Shown: positions 347 to 48,752 of the stretch, one piece after another
How the letters are laid out: every line of letters begins with the position of its first letter
How positions within the stretch are numbered: the stretch's first letter is position 1
Assembly (NCBI GenBank): GCA_015664885.1
Contig: DQPL01000124.1
Location: 1-64,000 of the forward strand
Direction of reading: 5' to 3'
Source of the DNA: Gemmatimonadota bacterium
Lineage (GTDB): Bacteria > Gemmatimonadota > Gemmatimonadetes > Longimicrobiales > Gaopeijiaceae
Length of the DNA stretch: 64,000 nt
The notes under the pieces: model-generated
What the model was told of the DNA's origin: nothing
Databases searched by the model: none
What the model saw: only the letters and a program-made list of their open reading frames with translations
Made by a program: the position numbers and the translations under genes

Positions 347-3300
347 GGAGCTCGCTTTCTGATGGGCTGGTCGGTGATGGCGAGCACCGCGGCGTCGTGC
401 ACGGCTCGTCTCATGGGGATGTGCTTTTGATTCTCACGCGTCGGGTGGACGCGGTTCGTGAGTAAGACCACCCAAAGGTCCAGCTGGGGGTCGAGCCAGA
501 TCGATGTGCCGGTGTAGCCGGTGTGACCGTACGCATCAGACGTCACGTAATCGCCACCGGATGAGCGCGCCGACGGCGTGTCCCAGCCGAGCGCCCGCGA
601 GGAGGACTCGTCGAAGCGCGTCGTGAACATCTCGAGCACGTCCTGCTCCACCAAGCGCTGCGCGCTGGCCCTGGCGACCGGGCAGGGCTCACCTGCAACC
701 TCCTCCGGTCGGCACGCCGGAGAGACGCCACCATTGAGCATCATACGCGCGAAGACGGAGAGGTCGACCGCGGTACTGAAGAGCCCGGCGTGCCCCGCGA
801 CCCCGCCCATGGCGTCGGCGTTCTCGTCGTGCACACGTCCCCAAACCAGCTCGTGCCGCCACGTCGTATCCATCTCGGTCGCCGCGATGCGGGGTCGCAG
901 CGTCGCGCTGGGCCGATATCGCGACTCGAGCATTCCCAGCGGCTGCCATAGCCGATCATTCAGGAAGCTGTCCAGTGATTGCTGCGCGGCCTCTTCGATG
1001 ACCCAGGCCAGCGTCATGATGCCGATGTCGGAGTACACCGTTTCGACGCCGGGCTCGAGATCGAGCGGTTCATCGGCGGCAGCGGCCTTATATGCCTCGA
1101 GACCCGCGATATCGAAAAACCAGCGCCGGAACGGCGGCAGGCCGGTGCGATGAAGCAGGAGCTGACGCACGGTGACTCGGCTCTTGCGATCGTCTCCTCT
1201 CGACCAATGCGGCAGGTAGGACACCACAGGTGCGTCCAGGTCGAGCAGGCCATCTCCGACAAGCATCATAGCCGCGGTAGTCGTGCCCACGACCTTGGAG
1301 ACCGACGCCATGTCCCAGATCGACGTGGGGGTGACCGGCCGGCCGCTTCCGTACGCGAGCTCGCCGAACGCTTTGAGCGATACGAGCTGGCCGCGCCGTC
1401 CGATCGCCAACGCGGCCCCTGAAGCCGCCGAGTCGGTGAGTGCAGCCTCGATGATCGAGTCGACCCGCGCTAGGCCTTCGGCGGACATGCCCACAGACGC
1501 GGGGTCGGCCACGGATTGATCCTGCCCGAACACACGGCGACCTGCTCGGTCGACGATCCCGGCCGCGACCAGCGGGTCATCGACCGTGCGCGTATCGATT
1601 CGTGTCGTAACCTGGGCCCGGTCGAGTCCGTCTCCGATCGCAGCCAGCGGCGGAATCGGGATCGGAAGCCGGCCCGTGATCGCTTGCTCGCCGAACAGCG
1701 CACCGAGCGCGGCACGCTGGGAGACCTCACGGTCGCCCCACGCCACCACGTAGCTGCTCACGTCGGGCAACGCTCTCACCAAGTACGGGCTCGCGAACGA
1801 GAGCAGTACGGTCGGCTTTTCGGTCGCGGCTTCGTTCACCAGCGCTCGCAAGGGCTCAGGCAGCGCCTCCTCGCCAGAGCCGACGGAAGGCGGCACGTAC
1901 ACACTCACGATGACCCGGCCAGCGCTCGCCACCGCCTCGGCCGCCGATGCGTATGCCGCAGCGTCGCTGCGCTCGTCCAGGCGCACCTCGCGCGCTCCGG
2001 GCACGCGCGCCAGGAGGCCCTGCGAGAAGGCCCGGCTCGCCCACAACCAGCTCGAGCGCGCATAGAGCAAGTGAACAGTCTCAACCGGAGCTTCCGCGCG
2101 CATCGGGACCAGACCGCCAGCATCGCCTACGAGTGTGATGGAGCGCACCGCGGCCGAGTCGGCGAGCGCGAGATGGGCTCCAGACCCAACCACCGCATCG
2201 ACTGCGTCGAGCGATACGAAGCGATTCCGATGGAGACCGAGCTCGGCTTTCATCTCCAGCAGCCGACGTACCGAGTTCTCGAGACGCGTACGCGTGAGTC
2301 GGCCGTCGCGCGTGGCCTGCACGACCGCGCTGATCGCCGCGCTTACGTCCTTGGGCGACAGGATCACGTCGGCGCCAGCCTCGACGGCGCGCACAGAGGC
2401 CTCGCCGATCCCGTAGGCGTCGGTGATCGCACGCATGGTGAGCGCGTCGGTGAAGAGCACGCCGTCGAACGCCAGGTCCGCCCTCAGCAATCCCGTGAGG
2501 ATCTCTGACGAGAGTGTCGCGGGTGGTCCGGCGGCACCGAGCAGGTTGGGAAGCGCGACATGCGCCGTCATGATCGCATCGACGCCTTCCTGGATCGCCC
2601 GGTCGAAGGGAATCAACTCGAGGGAGTCCAGGCGCGCGCGGTCCGCGAGGATCACAGGAAGGCCGATGTGAGAATCGACCGACGTGTCCCCGTGGCCGGG
2701 GAAGTGCTTGCCAGTGGTATATGCCCCGCCCTCCTTGGCGCCACGAATGAAAGCGGCGCCCAAGCGAGCGACCAGCTCGGGATCTGCGCCGAAGGACCGG
2801 CTCGCGATGACCGGGTTGTCGGCGTTGTTGTTCACGTCGAGCACGGGCGCGAAGAGCAGGTGCACGCCGCTCGCTCGCGCCTCGACCGCTGTGATACGCC
2901 CGTATTCGTACGCGAAGCGCTCATCACCGATCGCACCGAACGCCATCGTAGGCGGAAAAGAGGTGCCACCGCCCTGCGGCAGCATGGACGGCAACGCGTA
3001 GGAGCCGTTGATGCGCATGCCCGGGCCGCCGTTCTCGAAGTCGGCGGTCACCAGCAGCGGAATCTCGGCCCTAGCCTGTAGCGCGTTTAGCTTGGCCACA
3101 TAGGCATGAGGAGTGCCGATCGAGGGAGATACGCCACCAATCTTGTCCTCCACGACCCAACGCTCGAGCGGCTCGAAGTCGGGGCTGCTGGGCGATACGT
3201 ACCCGCCCGGGATCCACTCGATGACGAGCTGACCTACGAGTTCCTCCAGCGTGAGACTCTCGAGCGTCTGCTCGACCCACAGGCGGGCTTCGGCTTCCAG

Positions 3301-38682: not shown

Positions 38683-38718
38683 TTAGCAGCCCGCCGGACG
38701 TCTGCCACAGGCTGCTAA
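38683..38718 (-). terminator. Possible terminator after amidase 1
   Basis: Perfect 9-bp inverted repeat TTAGCAGCC / GGCTGCTAA with an 18-nt GC-rich loop; its right arm overlaps the amidase stop codon. No T-run follows, so termination is only suggested by symmetry and position. Confidence 0.4.
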
Positions 38719-40325
38719 CTCCGAGGCGCCGCCGACAACCGAGGGGCCACTCGCGCCTTCGTTGCTTGCTCCAGCAAGTAGGCGTAGCCCAGCAACTCCG
38801 CCTCGGTCCATAGGTCCCCGACGAAGGCGAGCACGAAGGGAGTACCGTCCTCGTAGTAGCTGTATGGGACAGTCACGACCGGCACACCGAAGTCGTTGAT
38901 GATGTTGCTGGGCAGTTCCGGCCAGTTGTTCGGCTTGTAGTCCGGACGCTCCGGATCTTCCACCATGTCGCGGTTCGGGGCGCCCGCCTGTGGGAAGAAG
39001 AGTCCGTCCAGGTCGTGCTCTTCGAACACGCCGCGATACAGTTGGCGTATGCGCATGCGCCACGCCTGGAAGGCATCCCCGGCCTCGGTGGCGCTAGGCC
39101 GCGCCGGCGAGGTGGGGCCGCGCCCCCCCCGCCCGCCTCGCCCGCGTCCGCGCCGGAACTCTCGGCCACTCAGGGCCTCCCATTCCTGAACGCTGTGGAA
39201 CGAGGCATTCGGCCCGAGCCCCTGCATGTATCGCAGCATGTCGTACGCGCCCTGTGAGGGGACCCGGGGACGCTCGCCATACAACTCGATGAAGCCGCTC
39301 CCCTCGAATGGGTCCTCCACGACCTCGGCTCCGAGGCCTACGAGCGTGGCGATCGCGTCCCGGTACTCCACTTCCGTCAACGGATCGAGCGGGAGCCACT
39401 GGTTGCGCCAACCCGGACCCACGAGCCCGAAGCGCTTGCCCTCCAGGGTCGCCCCTTCGAGCGAAGCGAGGTAACCACCCTCGGGCATGTGACCCACCGC
39501 AGCAAACGTCGCGGGATCCTCGGGCGTCGGTCCTGAAATGACATCAAGCGTGCGGGCCGCATCGCGCACCGTGCGAGCCAGCGGGCCTACGACGTCGACG
39601 TAGGTGCCGCTCAGAGGCACGATGCCCTCGATGGGTGCTAGGCCGTATGTGACCTTTACGGCGACCAGTCCTTGAGCAGAAGCCGGGTTTTGCAGAGACC
39701 CACCGGTCTCGGTCCCGAGCCCGAGCACCGCGAAGCTGGCGTTGACCGCCGTTGCGGTGCCACCGCTCGACCCACCCGGCACCTTGTCCACGTTGTACGG
39801 GTTGAGCGTCACCCCAGCGACCGTGCTCTCGGTGCGCGTGCCGTGGCCTGCGAAGTCGGGCAGGTTGGTCTTGCCCAGGATGATCGCGCCCGCGGCGCGG
39901 AGGCGGTCGACCACCGCGGCGTTGTCATCCGGGATCATGTCGATACCACCGGTCGCGCCACTGAAACCGTCGAAGCCCGCAGTGGTGACTCGTCCCGCCT
40001 GGTCGATGTTGTCCTTGATGACGACGGGCACGCCGTGCAGTGGGCCAACCGGCCCCGCGGCGACGTATTGCTCGTCGAGCTCAGCGGCGACGAGCAACGC
40101 GTCCGCGTTCATCGAGATGAACGCATTGTAGTGCTCCTCGTAGAGCTCAATGCGATCGAGGTACGCCCGCGTGAGCTCCACCGCTGTGTATTCCCCGGCG
40201 GCGTATGCTGCTTGAATCTGGTCGACGGTTAGTTCAACGACGTCGATCGCTTGGGCACTAGCGACCCCGGGGCACCAACATATCGCCCCAGCCAAGAGCC
40301 ACGTACGCGTGGCGTGCGAATTCAG
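38715..40325 (-). CDS. Exported amidase (amidase signature family) 1, apparent CTG start
   Basis: 536 residues. The amidase-signature catalytic triad is visible: Lys in VPVVIKDNIDQAG, cis-Ser in VPGGSSGGTATA and nucleophile Ser in GLGTETGGSLQNPAS. Homologous sequence plus a Sec signal peptide (TWLLAGAICWCPGVASAQA) needs a start upstream of the first TTG at 40295; CTG 40325 overlaps the M20 stop as CTGA and supplies a proper n-region (MNSHATRTW). A Gly/Arg-rich insert (RRGRGRGGRGGRGP) lies in the C-terminal third. It hydrolyses an amide in the periplasm; substrate unknown. Coupled to M20-A. Confidence 0.85.
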   Translation of the reverse strand: MNSHATRTWLLAGAICWCPGVASAQAIDVVELTVDQIQAAYAAGEYTAVELTRAYLDRIELYEEHYNAFISMNADALLVAAELDEQYVAAGPVGPLHGVPVVIKDNIDQAGRVTTAGFDGFSGATGGIDMIPDDNAAVVDRLRAAGAIILGKTNLPDFAGHGTRTESTVAGVTLNPYNVDKVPGGSSGGTATAVNASFAVLGLGTETGGSLQNPASAQGLVAVKVTYGLAPIEGIVPLSGTYVDVVGPLARTVRDAARTLDVISGPTPEDPATFAAVGHMPEGGYLASLEGATLEGKRFGLVGPGWRNQWLPLDPLTEVEYRDAIATLVGLGAEVVEDPFEGSGFIELYGERPRVPSQGAYDMLRYMQGLGPNASFHSVQEWEALSGREFRRGRGRGGRGGRGPTSPARPSATEAGDAFQAWRMRIRQLYRGVFEEHDLDGLFFPQAGAPNRDMVEDPERPDYKPNNWPELPSNIINDFGVPVVTVPYSYYEDGTPFVLAFVGDLWTEAELLGYAYLLEQATKARVAPRLSAAPRS

Positions 40326-41956
40326 CGGGCGTCCGGCGCCGAGCCATCCTCAGAGATCGGCCGGGTTCGGATCGTTGGATACTCGATCCCTAGCTGCTCG
40401 AGATAGGTGTCGAAGCGCGTGGCGTCGAAGTAAAAGGGGCGCATCTGGGGGCGCCAGCGCGCCATGAGCTCCTCGTTCAGCCAGATCGCGGGCTGGTCCG
40501 TCGGCGCGATGAAGGGGATGTATTCGGCCTCCTCGCTCTGCACATCGTTGAAGTAGTCCCATGCGGCATCGACCGTCTCGCCATCGAGGAAGAGATCGAG
40601 CAGCGTCAAAGCCTGGACCTTCGCCCCCGCGACTCCGCCCTTATGAGCAATGGGCGTCGCCATCGCAATTCCGTTTGCCCAGTTGTGCCCGGGACCACCA
40701 CTCATGTTTGACGGGTAACGGAGCGTCACGGTCGGCATGTTCCACGATACATCGCCGATGTCGTCCGAGCCGCCGCCGAGGGACCGCGACAAGTCGACGG
40801 GACCACGAAGAGAGCCGATCGTGTCCGCAAGGCCGACGATATCGACGCCCAACTCCCCTTGGAACGCCTCGGCGAAGCGGCGGTCGTCGTCACTCCACTC
40901 CGGCATGCCGACGCGCTCGATGTTGGCGTAGGTGACCTCCGCCACCGGCTTGCTGAAGTGCCGGCCCCAGGCCGATCCGACGGTCATGATGGTGTCGATC
41001 TGCGTGCCCGTCATGAGCGCGGCACCCTGGGCCATCAGGACCGCGGCGTCGTATTGCTCCTTGGTGAGCTCGTAGTCCCGCTCCCGGAAGTAGAACCAGA
41101 TCGTCGCGGTCTGAGGCACGACGTTGGGCTGGTCGCCACCCTCGACGATGATGTAGTGCGACCGCGCCGCGGGCCGCAGGTGCTCGCGCTTGAACTCCCA
41201 CGCTTGCGCCATGAGCATGATGGCGTCGAGCGCGGAACGACCCCGCCAGGGCGACCCCGCCGAGTGGGCGGTTTCACCGGTGAAACGGAACTGGACCGAC
41301 CAGAGGGCGTTCCCTCCCGCCTGCCCCCAGCTCATGCCGAAGCCGTTCGATACGTGCGTGAAGAGGTTCACGTCGACGCCGTCGAAGGTGCCTTCGCGTA
41401 CGAAGAACGCCTTGGAGGCGACCAACTCTTCCGCGACGCCCGGCCAAAGCAACAGTGTGCCGTCGATGTTCTCCCGCTCCATCAGCTCCTTCACGACGAT
41501 GGCGCCCACGATGTTGACCGCCTGACCCGAGTTGTGCCCCTCACCGTGTCCCGGCGCCATGGGAAGGATCGCTTCGCGGTACGCAACTCCGGGCTTCTGG
41601 TTCGATTGTGGGATTCCGTCTACGTCTGAACCCATCGCAATGACGGGCGAGCCCGTCCCGTTCGACCACCGAGCGGTCCACGCGCTCGGCATGCCGGCAA
41701 CCCCTAGCTCGATGTCGAAGCCCTCCGACTCGAGCAACTCAGTCAGATATCGCTGGGTCTCGAACTCCTGCATGCCGAGCTCACCGAACGAGAAGAGTTG
41801 ATCGATGATCTTCTGCACCAGCCCGGATCGGTCCTGAACCATCTGCTCTGCTTCGTCCTTGAGCGCGGCCAGTCGGGAATCGGCCTGCGCCGTGACGTCA
41901 GCGGGGTTGGCAGTCGTCACGAGTAGGAAGAGCGCGAGAGGGATCATTCGGCGCAT
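40322..41956 (-). CDS. Exported M20 amidohydrolase A (AbgB-like)
   Basis: 544 residues from ATG 41956, with a signal peptide (IPLALFLLVTTANPADVTAQ). M20 features: AMGSDVDGIPQSNQ, APGHGEGHNSGQAVNI (metal-ligand region), GETAHSAGSPWRGRSALDA (dimerisation domain edge) and GGGSDDIGDVSWNMPTVTL near the C-terminus, as in the p-aminobenzoyl-glutamate hydrolase AbgB. It hydrolyses an N-acyl amino acid or small amide outside the cytoplasm. It is nearly collinear with M20-B (47087-48721, same length), and each is followed by an amidase, so the pair arose by operon duplication. Confidence 0.87.
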   Translation of the reverse strand: MRRMIPLALFLLVTTANPADVTAQADSRLAALKDEAEQMVQDRSGLVQKIIDQLFSFGELGMQEFETQRYLTELLESEGFDIELGVAGMPSAWTARWSNGTGSPVIAMGSDVDGIPQSNQKPGVAYREAILPMAPGHGEGHNSGQAVNIVGAIVVKELMERENIDGTLLLWPGVAEELVASKAFFVREGTFDGVDVNLFTHVSNGFGMSWGQAGGNALWSVQFRFTGETAHSAGSPWRGRSALDAIMLMAQAWEFKREHLRPAARSHYIIVEGGDQPNVVPQTATIWFYFRERDYELTKEQYDAAVLMAQGAALMTGTQIDTIMTVGSAWGRHFSKPVAEVTYANIERVGMPEWSDDDRRFAEAFQGELGVDIVGLADTIGSLRGPVDLSRSLGGGSDDIGDVSWNMPTVTLRYPSNMSGGPGHNWANGIAMATPIAHKGGVAGAKVQALTLLDLFLDGETVDAAWDYFNDVQSEEAEYIPFIAPTDQPAIWLNEELMARWRPQMRPFYFDATRFDTYLEQLGIEYPTIRTRPISEDGSAPDAR

Positions 41957-41987
41957 GGAAGGCTCCGTGGGTGAGTCCGGTATCGGT

Positions 41988-42014
41988 GTCAGGGGCTGCA
42001 GGATGACCCCTGAC
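41988..42014. other. Perfect 8-bp inverted repeat in the M20-A / apbE intergenic region
   Basis: GTCAGGGG and CCCCTGAC around an 11-nt loop, 32 bp upstream of the M20-A start codon on the minus strand. It could be an RNA hairpin in the M20-A leader or an operator. No known motif was recognised. Confidence 0.4.
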
Positions 42015-42111: not shown

Positions 42112-42130
42112 ATTGAGAACGACTCTCAAT
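42112..42130 (+). promoter_or_regulatory. Fur-like operator
   Basis: ATTGAGAACGACTCTCAAT: 7-bp perfect arms around a 5-bp centre. The inner 15 bases match the 7-1-7 Fur pattern TGAtAAT-n-ATTaTCA at 10 of 14 defined positions. It is placed just downstream of the predicted -10, where a bound repressor would block transcription. A different Fur-family regulator (Zur, Mur) is possible. Confidence 0.6.
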
Positions 42131-42153
42131 CGCATCTTTCGTGGAGATTCGCA

Positions 42154-44379
42154 GTGGCTCCAGCCATTTTTTCGGCCCTGGCCTTCGTCGCCTCCATCCA
42201 GGCCGGTCCGACCGACTCATCGCAGCTCGTCACGCGCGAGGCGTGGGTCATGGGGACGAGGCTTTCAGTGATCGTGGAGGCCACGTCACTGGCCGACGCG
42301 AGCCAGGCCAGCGAGAACGTCATCCGTGAAGTCGAACGGCTCGAGCGCATGTTGAGCACCTGGGATCCACAGAGCGAGATGCACGCCATCAACACCGCGG
42401 AAGTCGGGCAGCCGGTCACTCCCTCGCCGGAGCTCGCGGCGCTTCTCACCGAGGCCGAGCGCTACTCCCGCACTTCGCACGCAGCCTTCGACGCTCGTGT
42501 GGGCGCGCTCGTGGACGCGTGGGACCTGCGCGGCGCCGGCGACGTACCGGCAGCTCGCGAGCTCTTGGCGGCGCGGAATGCCACGGGTGCGGGCGCGATG
42601 TCGATCGACGAGCGCACCGGTGTCGTAGTCCGACACATGCCGGCTGCCTGGATCGATACTGGAGGCTTCGGCAAGGGCGCCGCGCTTCGGGCAGCGGCAC
42701 GTAGGCTTGAGGCGGATGGCGTAGACCGGGCTCTCATCGACCTCGGCGGCCAACTGTGGGCGCAGGGCAGCGCGCAGAAGCCCTGGTCGGTGTACATCGC
42801 GCACCCGGAGCAACGACAACGTCGGGTCGCGCGGCTCGAGGTCCACGGCGTCTCGGTCGCAACCAGTGGCACGTCTGAGCGCTTCATCGAGGCCGAAGGC
42901 ATGCGATGGGGACACATCCTCGACCCCCGCACTGGGCAGCCAGCCCCGGCATGGGGAAGCGTGACCGTAGTCAGCGCCGACCCGGTGGAAGCCGATGCCC
43001 TGGCGACAGCCTTGTATGTCATGGGCCCGCAGGAAGGCCGAGCCTGGGCCGCGCGGCACCCCGAAGTGGACGCACTCTTCCTCGAGGCGGAGAGCGGGGC
43101 GTTGGCCGCTAGTTGGACTGGAGGCATGGAGCAGTGGTTAGTCGACGCTCCCGTCCCATCGACCGCTCCCGCACAAGCGCCGACACAGCAGGTCGACACA
43201 GCGCGCATCGCGGCGCTGGAGCGCCGGATCGAGGCAGTGACCCGCGAGCTCGAGCGCTTGCAGCTCGGCCGCGATGTGGTCGAGGCGGACTCGTCGATCC
43301 AGGGCCTCGGGCCGGCTGCCTCGAAGGTGTACCGAGTAAACCAGGGCGTCTCGCTCGGCGGCTACGGCGAGTTCCTGTATCAGAATTTCGCCGCCCAGCG
43401 ACAAGACGGCTCCAGGTCGGGTGCACTCAACAAAGTCGACGCTCTGCGAGCGATCCTCTACGTCGGCTACAAGTTCAACGATCGCTTGATCTTCAACTCG
43501 GAGCTCGAGATCGAGCACGCGAAAGAAAGCTTCCTCGAGTTCGCGTACCTCGACTATCTGCTGAGTGACCACGTCGGAGTGCGCGGTGGAATGCTGCTCG
43601 CGCCGCTGGGTCTCGTCAACGAGCTGCACGAGCCGCCGGTCTTCCTGGGCACCGAACGCCCGGTCACCGAGAACCGAATCATCCCGACGACGTGGAGGGA
43701 GAACGGCATCGGCCTCTTCGGTAGCGGAGACGCTTTCTCCTGGCGCCTCTACCTGATGAACTCTTTCAACGGTGCCAAGTTCAGCGCTGCGGGCCTAAGG
43801 GGCGGCCGACAAAAGGGCTCCAAGGCGCTCGCCGAGGACATGGGGGTCGCGGGCCGCTTCGACTACACGGGCACACCCGGGTTGCTGCTCGGTCTCTCGG
43901 CCTACAGCGGGGAGACGGCTCAGGGTCAGGAGCTCGGCGGCCAAAGCGTGGGCGGTCGAGTGCGCATCTGGGACGCTCACTTCGACTACAAGACGCGCGG
44001 TTGGGACCTGCGCGCGCTAGTCGCCGGCGCGCAGGTGAGCGACGTAGCGGACATGAACGCGCTCATCGGCCTGGAGGGGGCGGAAGGCATCGGAACCGAC
44101 ATGTTGGGCTGGTACGTTCAGGCGGGTTACGACGTGTTGCGCACTTCGCGGTCCCCCCATCAGCTGATCCCCTACGTGCGTTACGAGAGGGTGAACACCC
44201 AGCGAGGGGTCGCGTCGGGCTTCTCTGCGAACCCGGCCACAGACCTGACGGTGACCTCGATTGGCGCGGCATGGAGACCGATCTCCCAAGCGATCCTGAA
44301 GCTCGACTATCAGATACACTCCACGGCTGCGGATACCGGTGTAAACCAGCTCAATGCCTCGCTGGGTTGGCTCTTTTGA
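42154..44379 (+). CDS. ApbE (FAD:protein FMN transferase)-porin fusion
   Basis: 741 residues from GTG 42154 with GGAG 8 nt upstream. Residues 1-17 look like a signal peptide. Residues ~25-330 are a complete ApbE domain: VMGTRLSVIVE, STWDPQSEMHAIN, AAFDARVGALVDAWDL, IDTGGFGKGAA, ALIDLGGQLWAQG, VATSGTSERF, GHILDPRTGQPA and VEADALATALYVMG. After a Pro/Gln linker comes a short coiled coil (349-371), then a ~350-residue beta-barrel resembling porins (GVSLGGYGEFLYQNF ... INQLNASLGWLF-like aromatic end). ApbE transfers FMN from FAD onto Thr/Ser of exported target proteins. The next gene encodes such a target, with a TGATG overlap. Fusion of the enzyme to an outer-membrane barrel is unusual; both domains look complete. 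Confidence 0.85.
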   Translation: MAPAIFSALAFVASIQAGPTDSSQLVTREAWVMGTRLSVIVEATSLADASQASENVIREVERLERMLSTWDPQSEMHAINTAEVGQPVTPSPELAALLTEAERYSRTSHAAFDARVGALVDAWDLRGAGDVPAARELLAARNATGAGAMSIDERTGVVVRHMPAAWIDTGGFGKGAALRAAARRLEADGVDRALIDLGGQLWAQGSAQKPWSVYIAHPEQRQRRVARLEVHGVSVATSGTSERFIEAEGMRWGHILDPRTGQPAPAWGSVTVVSADPVEADALATALYVMGPQEGRAWAARHPEVDALFLEAESGALAASWTGGMEQWLVDAPVPSTAPAQAPTQQVDTARIAALERRIEAVTRELERLQLGRDVVEADSSIQGLGPAASKVYRVNQGVSLGGYGEFLYQNFAAQRQDGSRSGALNKVDALRAILYVGYKFNDRLIFNSELEIEHAKESFLEFAYLDYLLSDHVGVRGGMLLAPLGLVNELHEPPVFLGTERPVTENRIIPTTWRENGIGLFGSGDAFSWRLYLMNSFNGAKFSAAGLRGGRQKGSKALAEDMGVAGRFDYTGTPGLLLGLSAYSGETAQGQELGGQSVGGRVRIWDAHFDYKTRGWDLRALVAGAQVSDVADMNALIGLEGAEGIGTDMLGWYVQAGYDVLRTSRSPHQLIPYVRYERVNTQRGVASGFSANPATDLTVTSIGAAWRPISQAILKLDYQIHSTAADTGVNQLNASLGWLF

Positions 44380-44927
44380 TGCGAGCAGCCATGACGACGG
44401 GCGCGCTCGTCGTGCTCGCGTGTGCGGGTCCGGTCGGCGCGCAGACGCTGACCCAGGACGAAGCGTTGGCTCTCGCATTTCCAGGCGCGGAAGTGGAGCG
44501 GCGCACTGCCTTCCTCGACGACACACAGCTCGCGAGAGCCTCCAGCCTCGCAGGCCCAGATGTCGACGTGGAATCGACGGTGGTGACCTACTACGTCGCG
44601 ATGCGGCGGGGAGAACCGGCCGGCGTAGCCTACTTCGATGTGGACCGGGTGCGCACTCTCCCGCAAGTGCTGATGATCGTGGTCGGCACCGACGGCCGCG
44701 TGGTCCGTGTCGAGACGGTCAGCTTCAGAGAGCCGCCCGAGTACCGCGCCCCAGAGGGATGGCTCGCGCAGTTCCACGGTCGTGTGCTCGATGACCAGCT
44801 CTCTCTCAAGGGCGCAATCGCCAACATCACCGGAGCAACGTTGACCTCGGGAGCCGTGACGCGCGCTACGCGCCGCGTGATGGCGCTGCACTCGATCATT
44901 GACCCATTCGGTGTAGGCGCACGATGA
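44379..44927 (+). CDS. Exported FMN-binding domain protein (flavinylation target)
   Basis: 182 residues with a signal peptide (GALVVLACAGPVGAQ). The C-terminal part is an FMN_bind domain as in NqrC/RnfG, ending with the flavinylation motif TGATLTSGA at 151-159; by analogy with NqrC, Thr154 would carry covalent FMN. The middle (VLMIVVGTDGRVVRVETVSF) matches the domain core. It is the expected substrate of the ApbE domain encoded immediately upstream. It has no lipobox or obvious membrane anchor, so it is periplasmic or held by a partner. Confidence 0.82.
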   Translation: MRAAMTTGALVVLACAGPVGAQTLTQDEALALAFPGAEVERRTAFLDDTQLARASSLAGPDVDVESTVVTYYVAMRRGEPAGVAYFDVDRVRTLPQVLMIVVGTDGRVVRVETVSFREPPEYRAPEGWLAQFHGRVLDDQLSLKGAIANITGATLTSGAVTRATRRVMALHSIIDPFGVGAR

Positions 44928-45520
44928 CGCGGTTCCACGGGTGGTTCCTGTACGGCTCGACCATCGCGACCGCCGCGAGCGGCATCACGTACTTCGTGAT
45001 GAAGCGCTTCTTCGAGTCCTCGGACCCTTGGGCGGTGATCAACCATCCTTTGGAGCCCTGGGCGCTCAAGCTGCACATCCTGAGCGCCCCTCTCATGCTC
45101 TTCGCCGTGGGTCTGATCACGACCCAACACATCTGGCGAAGTCTCAGGTCCAGCCTCCCGACCGGGCGGCACAGCGGTCGCATCGCATCGTATGTCTTTG
45201 TGCCACTCGTGCTGAGCGGGTACTCGATCCAGGCCATCACGTCTCCTCTTACGCTGGAAGTGCTCGCTTGGGCGCACTTGGCGCTCGGCCTCGTCGCCGC
45301 GGGGGCAATCGGCGTTCACCGCATGGTGCTTCACACGCGGCGGAGGCAGCGGAAGGGGGCGTTGCCAGTGCTACAGCTGCCTGCGCAGCTCGAATCGGCT
45401 GATACGGACCCCGTGCCCGATTCCTGCCAAGAACTCGAAGCCCCGCGCCGCGCTAGAAGTCCATCGCAGGCCGACGCACATGCCAGTCGGTCGTCGACTG
45501 AAACGCCTGCGCCACGTTGA
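44924..45520 (+). CDS. Four-TM membrane protein with conserved histidines (possible b-type cytochrome)
   Basis: 198 residues, ATGA-coupled to the FMN-binding gene. Predicted helices lie at about 8-25, 51-68, 88-106 and 112-132. His51 and His69 flank the second helix (LHILSAPLMLFAVGLITTQH) and His118 and His132 the fourth (WAHLALGLVAAGAIGVH), a layout compatible with haem b ligation, as in small membrane cytochromes found with FMN-binding proteins. A hydrophilic C-terminal tail of ~60 residues overlaps the convergent amidase 2 gene by 68 bp. Likely role: passing quinol electrons to the flavoprotein; this is inference. Confidence 0.6.
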   Translation: MTRFHGWFLYGSTIATAASGITYFVMKRFFESSDPWAVINHPLEPWALKLHILSAPLMLFAVGLITTQHIWRSLRSSLPTGRHSGRIASYVFVPLVLSGYSIQAITSPLTLEVLAWAHLALGLVAAGAIGVHRMVLHTRRRQRKGALPVLQLPAQLESADTDPVPDSCQELEAPRRARSPSQADAHASRSSTETPAPR

Positions 45521-47090
45521 GAATTTTGTCGTCGGCGAAGAGGTCTCCCACAATCGTCGTGGTCAGCGGCATCGTCGTCGGGCTGTCCGCGTCAGGATTC
45601 CGAACACCGAAGCCATAAGGCACGATTACGGCTGGGTGGCCCGTATCGTTCGTGAGACCGACCGCACCGGATCCGCTCACGAACATGTCGAAGCCGTCCA
45701 TCGCCTCGGCCATCTCCTGCATGAGGATAAGCCGGCGGCGCTGGCCGTTGATGTAGTCGAGCGCGCGCATGTCTCGGCCGCGCCGGAATCGACCGCGACG
45801 GCGGCGATCGGCGGGTTCGAGATCTTCGGGCAGGGGCTCGGGCTCCACGCCACCCGGGGCGATGTGATAGTCGAACGCCGCGGCCGACTCGGCGCCCAGC
45901 TGGTCCATTCTGGCGTTCGGCAGCTCGTTCATCTCCCTGAGATTGGCGCCGAGCTCGGAAAGCTTCTCGAGGAACGACTCCGGCGCGTCCTCGTCGAACC
46001 CTATGCGCAGCGTGCTCAGGTCTACCCTGCGGTCATACACAAAAGGCGCCGTAATCGTCGCCGGGTCTTTTTCGCTCGCGCCGTGGATCGCGTTGAAGAC
46101 CAAGGCGCAGTCCTCGATGGAACGACACATGGGCCCCGGCTTGTCCATGCTCCACGAGAGTACCATGGCGCCGTACCGCGTAATCCTACCAAACGTCGGC
46201 CGCAGTGCGCTCAGCCCGTTGCGTCGTGAGGGCGAAACGATCGAGCCACGCGTCTCGGTGCCGATCCCGAACGCAACGCACGCGGCGGCGGTCGCCGAAC
46301 CCGGGCCCGCCGAGGAGCCGCTCGAGCCCTCTTCGATATTCCACGGGTTCTTGGTACGACCGCGGTACCAACGATCGCCTTGCGCGAACTCACCCGTGGC
46401 GAGCTTGGCGATAAGCACCGCGCCGGCGTCGCGCAGCCGCACGACGAGGTCGGCATCCTCCTCGATGACCTGGTCCTGGAACTGCGCGGAGCCCCATGTG
46501 GTGCGTGCGCCCGTGACGGAGAACAGATCCTTCACGCCGTACGGAATGCCGTGCAGAGGCCCGCGCCAGTTGCCCTGACGCAGGTCCGCATCGGCCTGCT
46601 GCGCTTCCTCGCGTGCACGATCCTCGAGGATCGAGACCGCGCACAGCAGAACCGGGTCGTAGCGCTTGATGCGGTCGAGATAGATCTCCGTGAGGTCGAC
46701 CGAGGTGATGTGACCATCCCTAACCAGCGCAGACAGCCTATGCACGGGCAGGAACGCTACGTCCTCTTCGTTGCTCGGGACCGGCCCGGGCCAAGCCGGA
46801 ATGTCGATCGGCGTACGCTCGAACATCGCGGGTCCGTGCTCACGCCACAGCTTCTCCATGAGCGAGCCCGTTCCGCCGGGATACGCCTGGAAGACGACAG
46901 CGGGGTGTTCGCCCTGGCCCAGCGGCACGGGAGGAGGACCCTGCTGTTGCTGCTCCAGGATCGTGGCGACGAGCGCCGGCTCGGATGCCGCGAGAGATGC
47001 CGGGTCGATCGCGCCCGCGGCCGCAGCTGCTGCAGCCACCCTTAGGAAGTCGCGACGCTCAATGCCACCGCCCGTGTCTTTCGTGCTCAT
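45453..47090 (-). CDS. Tat-exported amidase (amidase signature family) 2
   Basis: 545 residues from ATG 47090 (ATGA overlap with M20-B). A twin-arginine signal (GGGIERRDFLRVAAAAAAAG) directs folded export. Catalytic residues: Lys in YGVKDLFSVTGA, cis-Ser in EGSSGSSAGPGSA and nucleophile Ser in GIGTETRGSIVSPS. An Arg-rich insert (PADRRRRGRFRRGRDM) occurs in the C-terminal third. It is second in an M20-amidase operon like amidase 1, but the two amidases differ more than their M20 partners do, including Tat versus Sec export. Confidence 0.87.
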   Translation of the reverse strand: MSTKDTGGGIERRDFLRVAAAAAAAGAIDPASLAASEPALVATILEQQQQGPPPVPLGQGEHPAVVFQAYPGGTGSLMEKLWREHGPAMFERTPIDIPAWPGPVPSNEEDVAFLPVHRLSALVRDGHITSVDLTEIYLDRIKRYDPVLLCAVSILEDRAREEAQQADADLRQGNWRGPLHGIPYGVKDLFSVTGARTTWGSAQFQDQVIEEDADLVVRLRDAGAVLIAKLATGEFAQGDRWYRGRTKNPWNIEEGSSGSSAGPGSATAAACVAFGIGTETRGSIVSPSRRNGLSALRPTFGRITRYGAMVLSWSMDKPGPMCRSIEDCALVFNAIHGASEKDPATITAPFVYDRRVDLSTLRIGFDEDAPESFLEKLSELGANLREMNELPNARMDQLGAESAAAFDYHIAPGGVEPEPLPEDLEPADRRRRGRFRRGRDMRALDYINGQRRRLILMQEMAEAMDGFDMFVSGSGAVGLTNDTGHPAVIVPYGFGVRNPDADSPTTMPLTTTIVGDLFADDKILNVAQAFQSTTDWHVRRPAMDF

Positions 47091-48721
47091 GAGCCTGCTC
47101 CTCCGTCCTGTGAGATCGGCCGCGTTCGTACCGTCGGGTATTCGATCCCCAATTGCTCCAAGTAAGAATCGAAGCGGGACGGATCGTAGTAGTACGGCCG
47201 CATCCGCTCCCGCCAGCGAGCCATGATGTCTTCGTTCAACCAGATCGCCGGATGGTCGTCGGGCGTGATGAACGGCGTGTAGGTCGTCTCCGTGGTCTGC
47301 ACATCGTTGAAGTAGGTCCACGCCGCGTCCACCGTCTCTCCGTCCAGGAACAGGTCGAGAAGCGTAAGCGCCTGCACTTTGGCGCCGGCCAACGCACCTT
47401 TGTGCGCCACAGGTGTCGCCATCGCGATAGCATTTGCCCAGTTGTGGCCGGGGCCACCAGGCATGTTGGCCGGATAACGCATCGTCACCGTCGGCATATT
47501 CCACGAGACGTCACCGATATCGTCGGAACCGCCGCCCGCGTACTGCTCGAGGTTGATCGGGCCGCGCAGTGGAGGGACACTCGTCGCGAGCCCTCGGGGC
47601 TCCTGTCCCATCTCGCGTTGCAGCGCATTCGCCATCGCGATGTCGTCGTCGCTCCACTCGGGCAGACCCACCAGCTCGATATTCGCCTGCGCAACCTCCG
47701 CGACCGGCTTGCTGAAGTGGCGGCTCCAGGCGGAGCCAATGGTCATGATGGTATCGATCTGCGTGCCGGTCATCATCGCAGCACCCTGCGCCATCAGCTT
47801 GGCGGCGTCGTACATCTCGACCACGTGCTCGTAGTCGACTTCCCGCAGGAAGAACCAGATCGTGGCCGTCTGCGGCACCACATTCGGCTGATCACCGCCC
47901 TCGACGATGATGTAGTGCGAGCGCTGTGGCGGACGCAGGTGCTCGCGCTTGAACTCCCACGCCTGAGCCATGAGCATGACCGCGTCGAGCGCGGAGCGGC
48001 CTCGCCAGGGCGACCCGGCCGAGTGTGCGGTCTCGCCACGAAAGCGGAACTGCGTCGAGACCAGCGCGTTGCCGCTGGTATGTCCCCACGTCATGGAAAA
48101 GTTCGAGGAAACGTGCGTGAAGAGGTTGACGTCCACACCGTCGAAGACGCCTTCGCGCACGAAGAACGCCTTCGAGCCCAGCTGCTCTTCGGCGATGCCC
48201 GGCCAGATCAGGAGCGTGCCGTCGATCCTCTCTCGCTCCATGAGCTCCTTCACGTTCAGCGCGGCTACGATATTCACCGCCTGCCCTGAGTTGTGCCCTT
48301 CGCCATGGCCGGGCGCCATCGAAAGAATCGGGTCCCGGTACGCGACTCCTGGCTTCTGATTCGATTGCGGGATCCCGTCGACGTCCGATCCGAGTGCGAT
48401 GACTGGCTCGCCGGTACCGTTCGACCAGCGCGCCGTCCAGGCACTGGGCATGCCCGCCACGCCGAGCTCGATCGCGAAGCCGTGCTCTTCGAGGATGCCG
48501 GTCAAGTAACGCTGGGTCTCGAACTCCTGCATGCCCAGCTCACCGAAGCTGAAGAGCATGTCCACGATCTCCTGGACCATCTTCGCGTCGTCCTCGACCA
48601 TGCCGAGCGCCTCCGCCTTGAGCGACTCGAGGCGCGCGTCCGCTTGCGCTGAGAGCAAGGAAGGCGCGGAAGCCCCAAGAATGAGCACCGCGAGCAACGG
48701 GCGGAACGTAGAACGGCGCAT
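47087..48721 (-). CDS. Exported M20 amidohydrolase B (AbgB-like)
   Basis: 544 residues from ATG 48721, signal peptide LLAVLILGASAPSLLSAQ. Same landmarks as M20-A (GSDVDGIPQSNQ, APGHGEGHNSGQAVNI, GETAHSAGSPWRGRSALDA, GGGSDDIGDVSWNMPTVT), with long identical stretches, and exactly the same length. Probably a periplasmic N-acyl-amino-acid or aminobenzoyl-glutamate-type hydrolase. It lies upstream of amidase 2 and is coupled to it. Confidence 0.87.
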   Translation of the reverse strand: MRRSTFRPLLAVLILGASAPSLLSAQADARLESLKAEALGMVEDDAKMVQEIVDMLFSFGELGMQEFETQRYLTGILEEHGFAIELGVAGMPSAWTARWSNGTGEPVIALGSDVDGIPQSNQKPGVAYRDPILSMAPGHGEGHNSGQAVNIVAALNVKELMERERIDGTLLIWPGIAEEQLGSKAFFVREGVFDGVDVNLFTHVSSNFSMTWGHTSGNALVSTQFRFRGETAHSAGSPWRGRSALDAVMLMAQAWEFKREHLRPPQRSHYIIVEGGDQPNVVPQTATIWFFLREVDYEHVVEMYDAAKLMAQGAAMMTGTQIDTIMTIGSAWSRHFSKPVAEVAQANIELVGLPEWSDDDIAMANALQREMGQEPRGLATSVPPLRGPINLEQYAGGGSDDIGDVSWNMPTVTMRYPANMPGGPGHNWANAIAMATPVAHKGALAGAKVQALTLLDLFLDGETVDAAWTYFNDVQTTETTYTPFITPDDHPAIWLNEDIMARWRERMRPYYYDPSRFDSYLEQLGIEYPTVRTRPISQDGGAGS

Positions 48722-48752
48722 GCACGAATCCTCAAGGCAGAACACATCGCAA

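Follow-up and report, generated by a model that had tools for sequence, protein, structure and literature searches.

The window, a stretch of 64,000 nucleotides from a Gemmatimonadota draft genome, carries on its plus strand an operon headed by a gene in which the sequences for an ApbE protein and a porin are joined (Table 1). The fused open reading frame (42154-44379) begins with GTG and is uninterrupted across 741 codons. The gene for an FMN_bind protein starts inside the fusion stop codon (TGATG, at 44379), and that for a four-helix membrane protein starts inside the FMN_bind stop codon (ATGA, at 44924).

Table 1. Features of the operon and their positions in the window
Feature	Position	Strand	Basis
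Fur-like palindromic operator, TTGAGAACGACTCTCAA	42113..42129	.	Only genome match at ≤1 mismatch; alike palindromes upstream in relatives
Shine-Dalgarno-like GGAG	42143..42146	+	Sequence; 7 nt 5' of GTG
ApbE-porin fusion gene, 741 aa	42154..44379	+	Open frame and translation; fusion-length homologue in G053/L059
Predicted Sec signal peptide, MAPAIFSALAFVASIQA	42154..42204	+	Hydrophobic core IFSALAFVASI; early residues lack Lys/Arg
ApbE (FAD:protein FMN transferase) domain, residues 33-309	42250..43080	+	Pfam PF02424, 237 bits, profile 1-266 of 266
Coiled-coil helix linking ApbE to barrel	43183..43263	+	AF2 helix 8-34; kept in unfused relatives
Fusion point	43191..43192	+	Alignment with G001; ~110 nt absent
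16-stranded OprP-like outer-membrane barrel, terminal Phe	43345..44376	+	AF2 pLDDT 91.2, pTM 0.86; Foldseek OprP 2o4v, E 4.4e-14
Lumen-facing N-E-E-E ladder, strand 3 (NSELEIE)	43495..43515	+	99-100% conserved in 71 porins
NELHEP motif, in the long loop following strand 5, presumably the constriction loop	43618..43635	+	N, E, H, E, P all invariant (100%) in 71 porins
Exported FMN_bind protein, 182 aa	44379..44927	+	Pfam PF04205, 28.3 bits, cut-off 22
TGAT flavinylation site (predicted)	44829..44840	+	GAT 93-98% conserved in 89 relatives
Four-helix membrane protein	44924..45520	+	Conserved core to ~45358; H41, H51, H69, H118, H132

Members of the ApbE family take FMN from FAD and attach it covalently to a Thr or Ser of the substrate, as in FMN_bind domains. 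The ApbE domain of the fusion is complete end to end in Pfam (E = 2.6e-70), and the conserved family residues HxxDP, D281, T285, and G199-Q200 are retained. As judged from its sequence, this half is a complete FMN transferase domain, for which transferase function is predicted. For residues ∼340-741, a 16-strand barrel behind a coiled-coil helix was predicted with confidence by AF2. This region matched no Pfam family, and the barrel received no name from Pfam or NCBIfam; the nearest solved folds were OprP and OprO, the best Foldseek match being OprP 2o4v (TM 0.58). The claim of the preliminary description that the fusion is real, with both domains intact, is borne out.

Porin_O_P (PF07396) matched 17 of 71 relatives at E values up to 1 (best 3.9e-8) and did not match the window protein; DUF3570, the domain of a flavinylated substrate with two [S/T]GA[S/T] sites, matched none of the porins, and a sequence search of solved structures with the porin profile returned nothing of use. 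The lumen face of the Glu ladder was assigned by polarity alternation rather than from coordinates. Several conserved Arg/Lys residues of the 71 porins, their faces likewise assigned without coordinates, also occupy lumen positions. The porin itself was considered as an ApbE substrate, and this was dropped: [ST]GA[ST] is absent from 65 of the 71 porins and present in 6.

Partner proteins and the conserved module

The FMN_bind domain scored over the Pfam cut-off (E = 2.8e-6), and a signal sequence for export was read by eye. Its TGAT fits the published [S/T]GA[S/T] motif (PMC10979944). The FMN_bind profile was built from 11 seed rows, one of which (L039) was out of frame; this should not matter, because the matches to the profile are strong enough. 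In the four-helix protein, the five His residues are 98-100% conserved in 84 relatives. Four helices were predicted for the window protein by AF2, with H51 and H69 on helix 2 and H118 and H132 on helix 4. Relatives gave sub-threshold matches to DUF4405 and cytochrome b561, those to DUF4405 (PF14358) being weak and found in 22 of 62 relatives (best E = 3.2e-4). The window protein itself did not match PF14358 and passed no curated family cut-off in Pfam or NCBIfam. Foldseek comparison with solved structures gave weak matches (best, hydrogenase cytochrome b, E = 0.6), and a sequence search of solved structures with the four-helix profile gave nothing of use. The four-helix protein is likely a b-type cytochrome. 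The earlier proposal that the partners are a flavinylation substrate and a b-type cytochrome is thus in keeping with the PF04205 domain bearing TGAT and with the conserved His pairs.

Of the 62 loci with full flanks, the porin gene is followed by an FMN_bind gene in 61 and by that of the four-helix protein in 58; ApbE is adjacent to the unit in 44. The conserved unit comprises the porin, the FMN_bind protein, the b-type-cytochrome-like protein, and usually ApbE, and occurs across Gemmatimonadota, Acidobacteriota, and others. Another Gemmatimonadota metagenome-assembled genome (G053) encodes a homologue that spans the length of the fusion (51% identity across residues 4-741). Given this homologue, and a gene order kept in dozens of genomes, the fusion and operon are not due to chance. 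A literature search, confined to articles without their supplements, found no description of a porin with ApbE and FMN_bind. The four-gene module is widespread and previously unremarked, and the joining of ApbE to porin is rare within it.

Origin and distribution of the fusion

In a same-genus relative (G001), ApbE and the porin are encoded by separate neighboring genes, the latter with a signal peptide of its own; the same arrangement is found in nearly all other carriers. Alignment of the fusion with the G001 locus revealed that ∼110 nt are missing in frame, corresponding to the ApbE stop codon, the porin start codon, and the porin signal peptide. The coiled coil of the fusion corresponds to the mature N-terminus of the unfused porin in relatives. 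The window sequence is sister to that of unfused G001 (support 100/100), and the fused G053 sequence lies elsewhere in the tree and has a different linker. Because the G053 fusion is phylogenetically separate from the window-G001 pair, the fusion arose at least twice. On this sequence comparison, the fusion is a derived state and not an ancestral design. The preliminary description had named the lack of a fusion in every relative as grounds for refutation, and it was not refuted on this count, as one relative, G053, possesses an independent fusion; its view of the fusion as the essence of the system was not supported. Given that ApbE and the porin are separate in G001 and in nearly all other carriers, tethering of ApbE is rare and derived, and the chemistry cannot depend on it.

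Fusions were found in 2 of the 26 carriers of the order, the 29 carriers of the phylum sample added no others, and a genome search for both domains in one stop-free frame gave no match besides the window and G053. Long open frames hinting at more fusions (e.g. L012, L129, L134, and L140) were rejected, as ApbE is not in the porin frame; this rejection covers loci re-read on the porin strand. A porin-FMN_bind "fusion" in L071 is two genes that, at the end of a contig, appear to occupy a common stop-free frame.

It is about an even chance that the fusion is a neutral accident, that is, a deletion in a tight operon without gain of function that left the chemistry of the unfused module as it was. 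The two proteins would already have been made together, both facing the periplasm, and such an origin is compatible with a role in iron reduction. The small number of fused carriers in the order favors it, as do the retention of every part by unfused G001 and the arrangement in G138/L126, where a single TAG is all that separates the two in-frame genes, so that little is needed to fuse them. Against it, the event happened at least twice, with both domains whole and in frame each time, and the ApbE half shows no accelerated evolution in the window.

The dN/dS values of all four parts (0.14-0.21), together with a window branch without excess changes, indicate purifying selection on each part. These values and the open frames make it very unlikely that the operon is decaying into pseudogenes, as might be supposed from the loss of the porin signal peptide and from an ApbE signal sequence that lacks a basic residue; the GTG start and hydrophobic signal sequence of ApbE are, moreover, common to the window and G001. 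An assembly or sequencing artefact is scarcely credible. The draft assembly comprises 136 contigs, but it is 99% complete and the contig in question measures 68 kb; the ∼110 nt are cleanly absent with the frame kept, and G053 bears a separate fusion with another linker.

Iron linkage and proposed function

Most Gemmatimonadota carriers have, ahead of the operon, palindromes of the same type as the Fur-like operator. A Fur-like box score of at least 13/15 was obtained for 30 of 78 upstream regions, as compared with 2.1% of control segments. In 80 neighborhoods (784 kb), fur was found in 13 and feoB in 10, other phyla included; fur, feoA, or feoB lies beside the module in several phyla, in only some relatives, among which are fur-feoA-feoB-apbE-porin runs with Pfam-confirmed examples. 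The link to iron, first suggested from the operator, gains support from the conserved box and these neighbors. The operon is probably, in our moderately confident reading, an iron-regulated envelope module for ferric reduction that feeds ferrous uptake and in which the ApbE and porin genes are fused, its iron function being inferred.

The window genome also has two FeoB and two Fur-family genes, in favor of this reading. Several observations count against it. In this genome feoB lies elsewhere, unlinked to the operon, and no Fur-like box was found in the stretches searched around its feoB genes. Many Acidobacteriota carriers lack a recognizable Fur box. Judging by ∼24 TonB-receptor plug matches, the genome also has other routes for iron, and the nearest solved porins are phosphate or general porins, so an anionic substrate is possible. 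The operator at 42113-42129 has no second match in the genome at up to 1 mismatch; such uniqueness would not be expected of a global Fur site and also counts against the iron reading.

That the module handles or reduces a non-iron substrate (an oxyanion or organic acceptor), with the OprP-like porin admitting that anion, is unlikely. The phosphate porin OprP as nearest solved fold, the Porin_O_P matches of some relatives, and the conserved Arg/Lys in the lumen would fit such a role; the Fur-like box, the fur/feoA/feoB linkage in several phyla, and the conserved Glu ladder and NELHEP loop do not. A role in respiration or extracellular electron export, in which the porin would give the flavoprotein or free flavin access to external acceptors in the manner of porin-cytochrome conduits, is quite doubtful. 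The porin does adjoin a redox carrier and a membrane cytochrome-like protein, and Cyc2 is a 16-strand OprP-like porin able to carry an N-terminal redox domain (PMC8406198). Nonetheless, Fur-like control and Feo linkage better match assimilation, and no multihaem protein was recognized among the recurrent neighbors listed.

For ferric reduction, the following scheme can be proposed. When iron is short, a Fur-type repressor would open the operon. The four-helix protein, as a two-haem b-type cytochrome with His pairs on helices 2 and 4, would draw electrons from the membrane pool and deliver them to the periplasm. ApbE, from what is known of its family, would load the periplasmic FMN_bind protein with FMN, bound to the Thr of its TGAT. 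A ferric species would enter through the porin and be reduced by the FMN protein, and the ferrous iron would be imported by FeoB, whose gene is linked in relatives. A deletion would have taken out the ApbE stop and the porin start and signal peptide, so that the ApbE signal peptide may now export both halves. ApbE would then sit on the coiled coil at the periplasmic N-terminus of the porin, at the periplasmic mouth of the pore. Outer-membrane tethering of ApbE and direct reduction of a substrate entering the barrel, as first suggested, are in this sense inferences.

A more elaborate and rather improbable version is a flavin-based outer-membrane conduit, in which the FMN protein would dock at the periplasmic mouth of the Glu/His-lined 16-strand pore and reduce ferric iron inside, with the fused ApbE maturing and holding the carrier there; such a conduit would, with the same small probability, be a flavin counterpart of porin-cytochrome complexes.

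The ferric-reduction reading suggests that a conserved envelope reductase linked to iron is widespread in phyla in which the reduction of iron for uptake has received little study, and would tie an outer-membrane porin to flavinylation. The fur-feoA-feoB-apbE-porin-FMN_bind-cytochrome runs of some carriers make a pore-to-flavin-to-FeoB iron path directly testable, and the two independent fusions are natural experiments on ApbE working at the outer membrane.

Comparison with known systems

Like the flavinylation-associated electron-transfer clusters (eLife 2021, PMC8238504; Huang et al. 2024, PMC10979944), the module has ApbE, an FMN-binding substrate bearing [S/T]GA[S/T], and a membrane-spanning electron carrier rich in His. 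The available portions of these articles link several such clusters to iron assimilation and describe no porin-containing system with Feo linkage; the word "porin" is absent from both main texts. The DUF4405, FezC, and MsrQ flavinylation- and ferrosome-associated cytochromes likewise have His pairs in a small helical membrane protein beside apbE. According to PMC10979944, DUF4405 has six helices with four central His residues, whereas the window protein has four helices and five conserved His residues.

Two Fur-controlled porins of metal-reducing delta-proteobacteria, one of them psp (Genome Biol 2004, PMC545781), resemble the present porin, by description, in being weakly like Porin_O_P under predicted Fur boxes, and the one other than psp precedes feoAB; by contrast, the accessible part of that article mentions no ApbE, FMN_bind, or b-type cytochrome partner. 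The fused cytochrome-porin Cyc2 (PMC8406198) also places an N-terminal domain on a 16-strand OprP/OprO-like porin in an iron context, but here the fused domain is the FMN transferase ApbE rather than a CXXCH haem carrier, and the proposed direction is reduction rather than oxidation. Finally, an FMN transferase is similarly joined to a pathway protein in bacterial ApbE-DUF2271, as it appears in the available portion of PMC8238504, and in ApbE-fumarate reductase of trypanosomatids (PMC12052999); in those proteins the partner is the substrate that receives FMN, whereas here it is a porin.

Structure and origin of the fused gene

The preliminary description of an intact ApbE-porin fusion with coupled FMN_bind and four-helix genes was confirmed by the reading frame, Pfam analysis and gene overlaps. 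All 741 codons are open, and residues 33-309 of the product correspond to full-length ApbE (Pfam, E 2.6e-70) in which HxxDP, D281 and T285, among the residues conserved across ApbE relatives, are retained. No Pfam family was matched by the C-terminal half of the fusion protein. Modelling of this half from an alignment of 71 sequences gave a 16-strand barrel (pLDDT 91.2, pTM 0.86) with a helix ahead of it (residues 8-34 of the modelled piece); among solved structures it was closest to OprP, a phosphate porin (E 4.4e-14, TM 0.58), with general porins next. The second gene encodes an exported FMN_bind protein (above the Pfam cut-off) with a TGAT site that agrees with the published motif.

Coordinates of features in and around the flavin operon and at related loci
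Feature	Position	Strand	Details
Two similar amidase + M20-type peptidase gene pairs	38715-42010; 45453-48745	-	Bracket the operon
Palindrome	42113-42129		TTGAGAACGACTCTCAA
ApbE-porin fusion	42154-44379	+	GTG start; GGAG seven bases 5'
FMN_bind gene			Start overlaps fusion stop codon (TGATG)
Four-helix gene start	44924		ATGA, within FMN_bind stop codon
Four-helix gene, final ~53 codons	45359-45520		Beyond conserved core; low model confidence; overlap 3' end of convergent amidase gene
Listed amidase ORF	45453-47504	-	5' end probably over-long; likely start at MSTKDTGGGIERRDFLRVAAA, Tat-like signal
ApbE/porin junction, L126 (G138)	2400-2470		Same frame, one TAG and a few bases between
Second ApbE, window's genome	G000:C11:157392-160245		~1.8 kb from an FMN_bind domain in a long open frame (740 codons)
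TTGACAAATAGGACCAAT, L091-L114	~270-278 bases 5' of porin		~Ten Acidobacteriota (Holophagales-type) carriers

Reading frames over-extended like that of the listed amidase may account for some of the window's "fused" genes. A related amidase lies directly downstream of the module at three further loci (L044, L046 and L048).

The fusion is genuine, but it is a derived state. In a same-genus relative (G001), the ApbE frame terminates ahead of a distinct porin gene, which lies in a different frame and encodes a signal peptide of its own (MKRMKTLSWRVEIALAALVISVAPA...); by alignment, the window is without the ∼110 nt that comprise the ApbE stop, porin start and porin signal peptide. Because no strongly hydrophobic stretch able to export the barrel alone is left in the linker, export of both halves must depend on the ApbE signal peptide. 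Fused carriers in the order comprised the window and one other MAG (G053, the same record as L059), 2 of 26, and no further fusions were found in the phylum sample. Given that the window and unfused G001 are sisters in the porin tree (100/100 support) and that G053 lies elsewhere, among unfused relatives, two separate fusion events are the most economical account; the two linkers also differ. The single TAG parting ApbE from porin in G138 marks a near-fusion state and illustrates how easily the two genes can become joined.

Sequence comparison gave no sign of decay of the fused gene. Pairwise dN/dS values against G001 were 0.21 (ApbE), 0.14 (barrel), 0.18 (FMN_bind) and 0.18 (four-helix protein), with no excess of amino acid changes on the window branch (6 against 5 in ApbE, 12 against 17 in the barrel). 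For a very recent fusion, these values would mostly reflect pre-fusion time.

Conservation of the module

The conserved unit is a four-gene module, not the fusion. A GTDB genome scan yielded at least 560 confirmed porin relatives, and 80 of these loci, from Gemmatimonadota, Acidobacteriota, Myxococcota, Planctomycetota, Verrucomicrobiota and other phyla, were read. Among the 62 with full flanks, FMN_bind was observed 3' of the porin in 61, the four-helix gene after the porin in 58 and ApbE adjoining the unit, mostly upstream, in 44. ApbE tethering is a rare, derived condition within this wider module. Elsewhere, the window's genome encodes another ApbE and, close to it, another FMN_bind domain, probably a separate flavinylation system, which suggests that the fused ApbE may be dedicated to this operon. 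No earlier description of this porin-containing module was found in searchable papers, which is not proof of absence.

Association with iron

Iron is the best-supported theme for the module. The palindrome upstream of the fusion is the sole occurrence in the genome at ≤1 mismatch, and most Gemmatimonadota carriers have a similar palindrome upstream of the operon, often TTGAGAATGATTCTCAA or near it. A Fur-box consensus score of ≥13/15 was obtained for 30 of all 78 testable upstream regions, compared with 2.1% of random same-locus segments. Across 784 kb of neighbourhood, 13 loci carried fur-family genes and 10 carried feoB. In five Acidobacteriota loci, fur, feoA and feoB precede apbE, porin, FMN_bind and the four-helix gene; feoB is also nearby in one Verrucomicrobiota locus and two Gemmatimonadota loci of another lineage. 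Examples of these neighbours were Pfam-confirmed, and not every locus counts as independent. Away from the operon, the window's genome encodes two FeoB and two Fur-family proteins; no Fur-like box was found in the stretches examined around its feoB genes. The interpretation offered initially is supported in part: its redox-iron component gains support, but its tethering component is not general. For metal-reducing delta-proteobacteria, Fur control of a porin with weak similarity to Porin_O_P was predicted in 2004 (PMC545781).

In the TTGACAAATAGGACCAAT carriers, which have no ApbE beside the porin, this element stands in place of a Fur-like box and is possibly another regulated promoter.

Proposed mechanism and related systems

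The four-helix membrane protein would bind two bis-His haems, as judged from the His pairs H51/H69 (helix 2) and H118/H132 (helix 4), which are 98-100% conserved; H41 precedes helix 2. Its relatives weakly match DUF4405, a family of haem-binding proteins encoded next to apbE. In the porin, an N-E-E-E row occupies the polar face of strand 3 (faces were set by polarity alternation, not coordinates), and the loop NELHEP and several Arg residues are invariant, features from which metal or cation handling is suggested. In the fused form, ApbE would occupy the porin's periplasmic N-terminus. This placement resembles that in Cyc2, where a cytochrome is proposed at the equivalent porin N-terminal position and the porin half was likewise modelled on OprO/OprP (PMC8406198).
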